Both the position numbers and the translations under genes were made by a program. Shown piece after piece: positions 32,010 through 51,551 of a DNA stretch of 64,000 bases (positions within the stretch are counted from its first letter, which is position 1; the number at the start of each line of letters is the position of its first letter). The stretch spans positions 1 through 64,000 of the forward strand of contig NZ_JAJNAL010000018.1 of the NCBI RefSeq assembly GCF_022271405.1. The letters run 5' to 3'. The notes under the pieces were generated by a model. That model saw only the letters and a program-made list of their open reading frames with translations. It was not told where the DNA came from and made no database searches. Origin of the DNA: Rhodopseudomonas infernalis (GTDB taxonomy: Bacteria > Pseudomonadota > Alphaproteobacteria > Rhizobiales > Xanthobacteraceae).

Positions 32010-32109
32010 GTCATCGCCCGGCTTGACCGGGCGACCCAGTATCCCCGAGTGCTCCGATTAACATGGGCGCTCTGGAATACTGGGCCCTCCGCTTTCGCGG
32101 AGGGTGACG
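32010..32109. repeat. Class D palindromic repeat, copy 1
   Basis: Contains CGCCCGGCTTGACCGGGCG and CCCAGTATCCCCGAGTGC, with the inverted counterpart GCGCTCTGGAATACTGGGCC and GCGGAGGGTGACGG. Located between the BI-1 gene terminator and the GNAT gene. Other copies at 32770 and 45452. Confidence 0.75.
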
Positions 32110-32203
32110 GCGGGAGATGGGTGACAGTCGGGGATGGAAACGCGGCCATCGGTTGCGTATGACGGCGGCGTTCGAAGCGCCTATCGCTCGCCTCAGGCCC
32201 CGC

Positions 32204-32743: not shown

Positions 32744-32769
32744 ATCGCGGCGTCAGCGCCACTCTCTGC

Positions 32770-32871
32770 CGTCACCCTCCGCGCAAGCGGAGGGCCCAGT
32801 ATCCCAGAGCGTCAGTGAGTAACACGAACGCTCTGGGATACTGGGCCGCCCGGTCAAGCCGGGCGGTGACG
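32770..32871. repeat. Class D palindromic repeat, copy 2
   Basis: GTCACCCTCCGC and CCCAGTATCCCAGAGCG at the left; inverted CGCTCTGGGATACTGGG and GGGCGGTGAC at the right. Lies between convergent genes (GNAT and DUF2794). Confidence 0.85.
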
Positions 32872-32940
32872 TCGGTGGTTGGAGCCGACGTCAGTGGTAG
32901 GGCCGCGGTTGACGACGAACGCTGGCGGCCCCGAGCGATC

Positions 32941-33309
32941 TCACACCAGCGCCAGCTTCCGATCGATCACCAGCAGCACGCGGTCGAGTTCGTGGCCGCG
33001 GCGGAGGATTTGGCCGCTGGCGCCGATCACGCTGTAGGCGCCCTGTTTGCGGGCCAGCCGCGGATCCTTGACGATGCGATAGATCGGCACCTCGGAGGCG
33101 CGGCGATAGACCGAGAACACCGCCTGATCCTTGAGGAAGTCGATGGCGTAGTCGCGCCACTCGCCCTCAGCGACCATGCGGCCGTAGAGGTTGAGGATGC
33201 GGTTGAGTTCGAGGCGGTTGAACGTCACGCGCGGCTGCGACGGAGCGATGCCCTGGCGCTCCGCCGCGCGGCTCTCGCTGGGATCGCCCTCCCCGGAATA
33301 CAAGCTCAT
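32941..33309 (-). CDS. DUF2794 protein, 122 aa
   Basis: Small soluble alphaproteobacterial protein of the DUF2794 family, function unknown. The core FNRLELNRILNLYGRMV and WRDYAIDFLKDQAVFSVYRR (about residues 30-70) is diagnostic of the family. No signal peptide, no membrane helices. Monocistronic on the minus strand. Its promoter region abuts a plus-strand small RNA candidate. Confidence 0.85.
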   Translation of the reverse strand: MSLYSGEGDPSESRAAERQGIAPSQPRVTFNRLELNRILNLYGRMVAEGEWRDYAIDFLKDQAVFSVYRRASEVPIYRIVKDPRLARKQGAYSVIGASGQILRRGHELDRVLLVIDRKLALV

Positions 33310-33480
33310 TGGCGCCTCCTGTCACTGGGGTGACATGATTGCGCCGACGAGAGTGCGCCGCAAGGGGACCTAAAGCACGAAGCCGCAAGTGGGCCGCAAT
33401 GGTGCCCGCCGCACCCGGACACCTCACAGCTTCGTTAAGACGAATCTTATTACCGCCCGAATTTCGCCCAGCGATAGCCA

Positions 33481-33629
33481 ACCCGCGCTGCGAAGTTACG
33501 ATCACTGCGTTGGCTCGGTCCCTTCGGTTTCGGATTCCTCAGCCCCCAGCCCCCCGAGGCGGTCGGGACCGGGCCTGCGCAGCAGCCGAATCCCCCCACT
33601 GGACCGACGCAAGTTGGTCCTTTTTGTTT
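33481..33629 (+). ncRNA. Candidate small structured RNA with its own terminator (possibly 6S-like)
   Basis: An intrinsic terminator on the plus strand (33601-33625) has no plus-strand gene upstream: the flanking genes on both sides are on the minus strand. Directly upstream is a nested fold: outer stem GCTGCG (33487-33492) / CGCAGC (33578-33583), an asymmetric internal loop, then a 10-bp stem GCTCGGTCCC (33513-33522) / GGGACCGGGC (33565-33574, one G-U), then CCTC (33537-33540) / GAGG (33556-33559). A long hairpin with a central open bubble is the architecture of 6S RNA, but the identity is only a guess. The 5' end is not determined. Confidence 0.55.
33601..33629 (+). terminator. Orphan plus-strand intrinsic terminator
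   Basis: 8-bp stem GGACCGAC / GTTGGTCC (33601-33608, 33613-33620; one G-U pair) closed by a GCAA (GNRA) tetraloop, followed by TTTTTGTTTG. Confidence 0.88.
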
Positions 33630-33696
33630 GTGGGATGTCAATTGAAGCCGCCCGGTCGGGCCGCGACCTGTCGCAGCCGGCAGCTTCCGCGCAGCT

Positions 33697-34452
33697 CTAG
33701 TGCAGCGACGTGAACGCCCCGCCGAGCATCGGCCCGGGCCGCTCCCGGCTTCCGTCCTGGACATAGACGGCGGCCGCGTCGACGCCGTCATGGGCGATAT
33801 TCTCCAGCGGCACCGACCAGCTGCCGGCCGCGCCGGTCCAGTCGCCGACCTTCAGCAGATTGCGCACGACGTTGTGATAGGTGACCTCGCGCCCCCGGTT
33901 CTCGCCGCGCGCGATCGCGATCGGCACCGCCTTGGACACCGCGCAGATCCAGACCTCGCCCTGCCGGGCGCCCGCGCCATTCGGCGCCGCCGCCACCGAC
34001 ACCTTGATCTCCTTGCCGCTCACCGCCATCGCCACCGGCACCGTCATGATGCCGGTGCCCTTGTGGGTGGTCTTGATGGCGTCCTCGATGCCGGTGCGAT
34101 TGCTGCCGACCAGATGCGCCGAGCCGTTGACCACGACCTGCGGGGTGTAGACGTCGCGGTCGCCGCGCATCTGCGAATAGGCTTTCTGGCGCGCGCTGAA
34201 GCGGGCGTCCGCCAGCGTATCCTTCCAGCCGAGATAGTCCCAGTAGTCGATCGGCATGCTCAGTGCGATGACGGACGGATCCTTGGCCAGATCGCCGATG
34301 ATCTTGTCGGCGGGCGGGCAGGACGAGCAGCCCTGCGAGGTGAACAGCTCCACCACCGCACGCGGCTCGGCGGCCGACGCATGCGTCGCCGCGACCAGTG
34401 CGCACACACCGAGTGCGCCGGACCATCGCGAAAAGCCAGGAATTCGGATCAT
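33697..34452 (-). CDS. DUF1223 thioredoxin-like secreted protein, 251 aa
   Basis: Exported protein of the DUF1223 family. A signal peptide occupies residues about 1-28 (cleavage after ASA), followed at once by a thioredoxin-like start: VVELFTSQGCSSCPPADK with C42-x2-C45. The family is predicted to be an oxidoreductase in the envelope, but no substrate is known. The ATG at 34452 is chosen because it gives a proper signal peptide; the frame runs upstream without plausible coding. Downstream of acnA on the same strand but separated by a terminator. Confidence 0.87.
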   Translation of the reverse strand: MIRIPGFSRWSGALGVCALVAATHASAAEPRAVVELFTSQGCSSCPPADKIIGDLAKDPSVIALSMPIDYWDYLGWKDTLADARFSARQKAYSQMRGDRDVYTPQVVVNGSAHLVGSNRTGIEDAIKTTHKGTGIMTVPVAMAVSGKEIKVSVAAAPNGAGARQGEVWICAVSKAVPIAIARGENRGREVTYHNVVRNLLKVGDWTGAAGSWSVPLENIAHDGVDAAAVYVQDGSRERPGPMLGGAFTSLH

Positions 34453-34509
34453 CGTCGCCTTTGCCGGGAGCAGGCGACGGCTGTGCGCCGCCGCTCGGGG
34501 GTGCCTTGA

Positions 34510-51286: not shown

Positions 51287-51551
51287 ATGCCTCGCCCTCG
51301 TTAAGCACCGGATATATAGCAGCTTTTCGATTGCCCAACAGTCCCCGCCAAGACCTGAAGCGCCGCAATTCTTGACTTTCCGGCGTCGTCGCGTGTAGAT
51401 GCCGGCGAAATCTCGGAAAGTTCTCTTTTCGATCCGCCGACCGGTCCTCGAGGCCGGAGGCCAACGTCCGACAGCGCGATGCGCCCTCGGGCGCCATAAG
51501 TGTTTGCTTCTGTAGGCCTTTCACCGAAGGGCCGTCGCTGGAATTGGGCCG

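Follow-up and report, generated by a model that had tools for sequence, protein, structure and literature searches.

A BjrC174-family small RNA divergent from DUF2794 in Rhodopseudomonas infernalis, with a conserved C-rich loop and a phased GCC box as a candidate ChvI site

By covariance-model search, the intergenic region between a DUF2794 gene and a DUF1223 gene in the window (the whole 64,000-nucleotide stretch of DNA analyzed here) is a small RNA (sRNA) gene of the catalogued BjrC174 family, and homology searches indicate that this family is wider than catalogued, being found across the order Rhizobiales and beyond it. The match to RF02355 (BjrC174) is full-length, i.e., model positions 1-201 of 201, and scores 159.7 bits against a gathering cut-off of 45. 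It is the single match to RF02355 within this genome, and 33300-33720 contains no match to any other Rfam family at E <= 1. A sequence-only reading of this region had proposed an unannotated, independent plus-strand sRNA with its own terminator. Independence is supported by the family match and by the B. japonicum member, previously described as an abundant sRNA (PMC4842269); "unannotated" does not hold for Rfam, and as a member of a catalogued family the element is not new in kind. We consider it probable that the RNA acts in trans, is switched by ChvI through a GCC box, and pairs through its C-rich loop with G-rich sites in envelope mRNAs. The features on which this proposal is built are as follows.

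32941-33309, minus strand: DUF2794 (PF10984) gene, Pfam 137.4 bits; divergent from the RNA and its usual neighbor.
33423-33624, plus strand: extent of the RF02355 match by covariance-model alignment, of which the first ~80 positions are probably promoter and not RNA.
33455-33479, plus strand: phased box GCC-N8-GCC-N8-GCC, read in the sequence, overlapping the -35 position; proposed ChvI/OmpR-family activator site.
33492-33497, plus strand: weak -10-like position, GAAGTT here and approximately GATAAT in the family consensus (column frequencies); assigned from its position.
33504-33626, plus strand: putative sRNA transcript of the BjrC174 family; 5' end at ~33503-33505, 3' end in the U-tract.
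33505-33582, plus strand: long hairpin, by folding, with outer stem 33505-33510/33577-33582.
33512-33522/33565-33575, plus strand: main stem, GGCTCGGTCCC with GGGACCGGGCC, 11 pairs including one G-U, by folding.
33527-33533/33554-33560, plus strand: inner stem, by folding and covariation.
33541-33555, plus strand: twin C-run AGCCCCCAGCCCCCC, nearly invariant and lying for the most part within the loop 33534-33553; proposed as the seed that would pair with targets.
33601-33629, plus strand: intrinsic terminator, with stem 33601-33608/33613-33620 and GCAA loop 33609-33612, followed by TTTTTGTTT.
33697-34455, minus strand: DUF1223 gene, Pfam 235.2 bits; convergent with the RNA.

The gene order is thus DUF2794, the sRNA, DUF1223 and then aconitase, and both adjoining genes lie on the minus strand, as the sequence-only reading had stated. 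Elsewhere in the window, RF01793 (ffh sRNA) matches at 51450-51502 on the plus strand with 57.2 bits (cut-off 35). A palindromic repeat element is also present in two copies, at 32010-32111 and 32768-32870, on either side of a GNAT acetyltransferase gene; its arms are 44-45 nt long and 89-95% complementary between copies, and one copy sits between the GNAT acetyltransferase gene and DUF2794.

The hairpin and terminator of the RF02355 consensus are both kept at this locus, as judged by alignment, folding and covariation. Folding of 33500-33629 yields -60.8 kcal/mol, with z = -4.2 relative to 200 shuffles. The covariation analysis covered the main and inner stems; the outer stem rests on the fold. 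In an alignment of 41 hairpins (A2), 14 of 17 pairs are changed on both sides, and 92.0% of cells are paired; shuffles give 80.6%, and sliding the partner strand gives no more than 57.1%. This alignment took in 41 of 49 non-redundant loci, and most of the omitted rows (L041, L080, L082, L094, L098, L099, L101 and L111) are close to rows that were kept. L082 and L098, though, fit the stem more poorly (8 and 7 of 11 pairs, respectively), so that their omission favored the structure, and the main-stem count was redone on all 49 loci. In this larger set 516 of 539 cells are paired, and 8 of the 11 main-stem pairs carry changes on both sides. The stems put forward in the sequence-only reading are present in the sequence; one detail, the outer GCTGCG/CGCAGC pairing, was mis-registered. 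The Rfam consensus instead places the outer stem at CTGCGT (33505-33510) and GCGCAG (33577-33582), and the GCTGCG at 33487-33492 lies upstream of the putative 5' end, part of it pairing in a fold begun at 33481.

The loop of this hairpin carries the near-invariant motif AGCCCCC(C)AGCCCCCC. Exactly five or six C, AG and six C are found in 37 of the 49 non-redundant loci. Because these loci were partly chosen by the C motif, the unbiased figure is that from loci picked by DUF2794 alone: in 77 of 80, no more than 700 nt separate a twin C-run from the DUF2794 start (74 divergent from DUF2794 and 3 inverted), a count that comes from the best 80 of at least 583 loci, is rich in Bradyrhizobium, and has no chance expectation attached to it. 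The three loci in which the twin C-run is absent are L097, L106 (Nitratireductor) and L108.

Downstream of the hairpin, the 8-bp stem with a GCAA loop is indeed present at 33601-33620, and this terminator falls inside the RF02355 match. Taken alone it is not significant, i.e., 1 such site occurs in 32800-34400 and 0.7 are expected in shuffles. What sets the locus apart from chance is its family membership, at 159.7 bits, together with the covariation. In several members (e.g., L077, L080, L081, L084 and L087) the 3' spacer between hairpin and terminator contains TTCAATCCCC, often GGTTCAATCCCC. This stretch resembles a tRNA T-arm and constitutes a second C-run, and a related stretch occurs in 16 of the 49 loci.

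The distribution of the family was examined with RF02355 and with R1, a covariance model built from the hairpin only, without the promoter, which in this locus matches 33502-33584. RF02355 is found at E <= 0.001 in 77 of 297 genomes of the order Rhizobiales and exceeds the cut-off in 22 of the 297, with many families represented. R1 detects the RNA in 16 of 16 genomes of the genus and in 26 of 40 genomes of the order, some of which supplied R1 training sequences; on the same 40 genomes RF02355 gives 5 matches over the cut-off and 15 at E <= 0.001. In the remaining 14 of the 40, R1 finds no copy. A search of 385 genomes of the class, at least five of which belong to the order itself, returned R1 matches in 19, and 17 of the 19 carry labels that place them outside the order, in 8 families. 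None of the 17 loci scanned with Rfam, among the 21 outside-order R1 loci, contains an Rfam family at its gathering cut-off.

The neighborhood is conserved along with the RNA. DUF2794 is next to it in 29 of 30 loci of the order, as assessed by tblastn with the window's neighbors (the exception being L029), and in 13 of the 17 outside-order genomes DUF2794 is beside at least one RNA copy within a flank of ~1.5 kb. DUF2794 itself occurs in at least 208 of the 385 class genomes. Among the matches listed, 80 DUF2794 stretches from 79 genomes were hand-picked to spread over families (L178 and L179 belong to the order itself, and L201 is only 91 bases long); R1 matches 9 of the 80 at E <= 0.01, in 7 families, with L181 being a place already counted. 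That is, outside the order the RNA is either patchy or too diverged for the model. In one outside-order family, f91, three genomes have two or three copies of the RNA. One of them, G335, has two in tandem beside DUF2794 (L176/L177, G335:C1:2222793-2223066), and each of the multi-copy loci of this family (L176/L177, L166, L165, L174, L167 and L175) has a GCC box at 8/9 or 9/9 positions.

Upstream of the hairpin, the exact triple box GCC-N8-GCC-N8-GCC occurs in 33 of the 49 non-redundant loci, whereas 0.07 are expected from dinucleotide shuffles; at 8/9 positions or better it occurs in 41 of 49, and the expectation is 1.20. As a control on the spacing, 64 spacing pairs were compared, and no other pair occurs in more than 7 of the 49 loci. 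Some of these loci came from RF02355, whose model includes the box stretch; in 28 non-redundant loci chosen by DUF2794, a draw free of this bias, the box is present at 8/9 or better in 23. An analogous count was made outside the order on 28 R1-chosen loci, i.e., the 21 outside-order R1 matches and 7 of the 9 DUF2794-side loci with R1 at E <= 0.01. The two that were dropped are L181, the same place as L173, and L243, a partial match with a 9/9 box beside DUF2794. The box is found at 8/9 or 9/9 in 25 of these 28 loci, with 0.77 expected, although they are not independent, since they include near relatives and several copies from single genomes. It falls below 8/9 in L172 (probably a false match), L184 and L185. 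In the 25 loci, the box begins 41-62 nt before the R1 start, mostly 47-54 nt.

These positions bear on where the RNA begins. A conserved GTTGCC/GCGTTG element follows the box, its first nucleotide standing 49-52 nt after the box start in 38 of 49 loci, and the weak -10-like position is in between. From the box, the -10 position and this element, we infer that the RNA starts near 33504 and not at 33423; the first ~80 positions of RF02355 are thus probably promoter DNA. This, together with the 5 of 40 genomes over the cut-off for RF02355 compared with 26 of 40 for R1, suggests that RF02355 should be rebuilt. A sigma-70 promoter scan of 32800-34400 returned nothing. An ordinary CTTG -35 element was considered and dropped, CTTG being in the -35 place in only 7 of 49 loci. 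The upstream region of B. japonicum BjrC174 has been reported to have the highest promoter activity among the tested transcription start sites without a mapped RpoD- or RpoN-like promoter (PMC4842269), which fits the expectation for an activator-dependent promoter.

Which regulator might recognize the box? In alphaproteobacteria, ChvG-ChvI and its orthologs are described as controlling the state of the envelope and the response to acid, as well as symbiosis and interaction with hosts. For ChvI of S. meliloti, the binding site has been cited as GCC direct repeats, N-GCC-N8-GCC (PMC9731502). When S. meliloti ChvI was used in a screen for DNA binding, a fragment was recovered that spans the region upstream of chvI, and the authors of the screen suggest autoregulation on this basis (PMC3687685). 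In the present genome chvI, chvG and hprK lie in a row (chvI and chvG being named from sequence and gene order), and chvI is preceded by GCCACATTTCAGCC, which fits the consensus of the sRNA family, GCCnnAWTTCnGCC. A 14-bp matrix derived from the sRNA promoters only was then applied to chvI upstream regions of the order, 28 in number after L141 and L146 were left out of 30 for want of a start by motif. At a score of at least 12, the matrix hits 8 of 28 of these regions in sense orientation, 0 of 28 in antisense and 4 of 791 background regions, the other 20 chvI regions being below 12; at a score of at least 9, the corresponding figures are 17 of 28, 1 of 28 and 41 of 791. Hits from related genomes are not independent. 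Autoregulation of chvI through the plain repeat is not supported, as GCC-N8-GCC is not enriched at the chvI promoters (9 of 28, with 6.6 expected), but the fuller half-box matrix is. In the closest relative tested (L125), no GCC-N8-GCC was found at chvI, only the variant GTCACACTTCAGCC. An 11-mer pattern at chvI (19 of 28, with 0.39 expected) was picked from the same sequences and is given no weight here.

On these grounds ChvI is likely, though well short of certain, to be the protein that binds the box. A ChvI-like regulator is present in all 61 genomes of the order that were searched; given that R1 does not find the RNA in 14 of 40, the RNA is no fixed part of the ChvI system. The pattern GCCNNATTTCNGCC has 10 sites in this genome, compared with 3 for the reversed pattern, and since several of those besides chvI lie inside open frames, no regulon is claimed. 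At L120 (G000:C23:7668-7681), the half-box pair GCCACATTTCAGCC, identical to that at chvI, is found by a terminator-like hairpin. From sequence and order, we take the flanking open frames to be ftsZ-like before it and lpxC-like after it.

Four other explanations have to be weighed. The long hairpin with internal loops had led the sequence-only reading to suggest 6S RNA, which binds RNA polymerase. As family membership this is refuted: the search found no RF00013 match in 33300-33720 at E <= 1, and the genome has a separate 6S gene on another contig (G000:C38:24101-24261, 79.1 bits). The part that is conserved here is, moreover, a C-run loop and not an open-promoter-like central bubble, so we regard a 6S-like role as highly improbable. 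We think it just as far-fetched that the region is merely the terminator or 3' part of another transcript, or a set of chance hairpins, with no gene of its own. Such a view could draw on the terminator, by itself no commoner than chance, but it would have to accommodate minus-strand genes on both sides, a promoter box whose distance hardly varies, the covariation, the synteny, and the reported expression of the relative's RNA in B. japonicum (PMC4842269).

The two remaining explanations accept the sRNA and differ over its partners. The box could be bound by another regulator of the OmpR/PhoB family, so that the RNA would serve a different signal. Phased direct repeats are typical of this whole family (for example, CenR is reported to use TGA-N8-TGA), the plain GCC repeat is not enriched at chvI, and the Caulobacter ChvI motif has been published as a different one, TTGC-N3-GCAA. 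Yet the CenR repeat is TGA and not GCC, for ChvI of S. meliloti the site has been reported as GCC-N8-GCC (PMC9731502), and chvI promoters show an excess of sense-strand hits to the matrix from the sRNA promoters; this possibility is, in our view, unlikely but by no means negligible. Alternatively, the C-rich hairpin could mainly bind a protein, as a decoy or a scaffold, instead of mRNAs. Preservation of the loop over great distance while the stems vary would suit this idea, as would the failure to find a long complementary site in the genome. However, no C-run-binding protein partner is known to us in alphaproteobacteria, and GsrN and CcnA, alphaproteobacterial sRNAs with C-rich loops, have been reported to act by pairing with G-rich stretches of mRNA. 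We hold protein binding as the main function to be rather improbable.

In the mechanism that we favor, an sRNA of ~123 nt would be transcribed divergently from DUF2794, with the GCAA-capped terminator at its end. The promoter of this sRNA would have no proper -35 element; in that place an OmpR/PhoB-type response regulator, most likely ChvI of the ChvG-ChvI envelope and acid-stress system, would bind three 11-bp repeats. The RNA would present, on one long covarying hairpin, the near-invariant C-rich loop, and this loop would most likely repress envelope mRNAs by pairing with G-rich sites close to their starts. Such pairing is proposed by analogy with the loops of GsrN and CcnA and with the repression of an outer-membrane receptor by ChvR, a ChvI-dependent sRNA. 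A search of this genome for the 12-nt sequence complementary to the C motif returned just two places, the sRNA gene and the edge of one contig; thus, no long target match was found.

We found no function for BjrC174 in open-licence papers, and among the matches listed in such papers we did not find the wide range, the phased box or the chvI link in print. With a box at near-fixed distance, a loop that hardly changes and a habitual neighbor gene, the regulator, the targets and the stress become testable. If the chvI link is true, one conserved RNA arm of the ChvG-ChvI system has been overlooked. A broader idea, which we entertain only tentatively, is that BjrC174 is the visible part of an ancient envelope-stress sRNA that extends throughout alphaproteobacteria under ChvI control and beside DUF2794, with box and loop preserved while the stems drift. 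It would then be the counterpart, in alphaproteobacteria, of the enterobacterial envelope-stress sRNAs.

Among known RNAs, 6S (RF00013) shares with this one a long imperfect hairpin and differs in that its covariance model has no match here. EcpR1 (SmelC291), considered for its wide range in the order, is likewise reported to be an sRNA conserved widely within the order and to have a conserved loop; it is ruled out by location and loop, in that it lies between divK-pleD and rpmG in S. meliloti, genes that are not neighbors here, and its loop, UCCGCCGCAUCU, is absent from 33481-33629. For GsrN-like sRNAs, a C-rich loop is described that is exposed and has predicted pairing to G-rich sites in mRNAs, and the loop 33534-33553 is similarly exposed. 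GsrN, however, is reported to be driven by sigma-T, with homologs usually near general-stress genes, whereas the neighbor here is DUF2794 and the promoter has a GCC box; the six adjoining proteins were identified, and none is a general-stress regulator, proximity to the EcfG/PhyR general-stress genes being usual but not universal for GsrN-like RNAs. GsrN and CcnA are analogues only, with a like loop at another locus. The same proposed logic, i.e., an sRNA under ChvI-ChvG control that pairs with an envelope mRNA, is described for ChvR of Caulobacter crescentus. ChvR is 84 nt long and located between CCNA_00157 and recF, and its authors report seeing no conservation beyond C. crescentus; the neighbors here do not include recF, so location does not support homology and ChvR, too, is an analogue only. 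The one system of which this gene is a member is BjrC174 itself, with the same hairpin, C-rich loop and terminator over 201 positions. Rfam labels it a Bradyrhizobiaceae sRNA, with a model that includes the presumed promoter, whereas the hairpin traced here extends order-wide and beyond and is preceded by a phased box.
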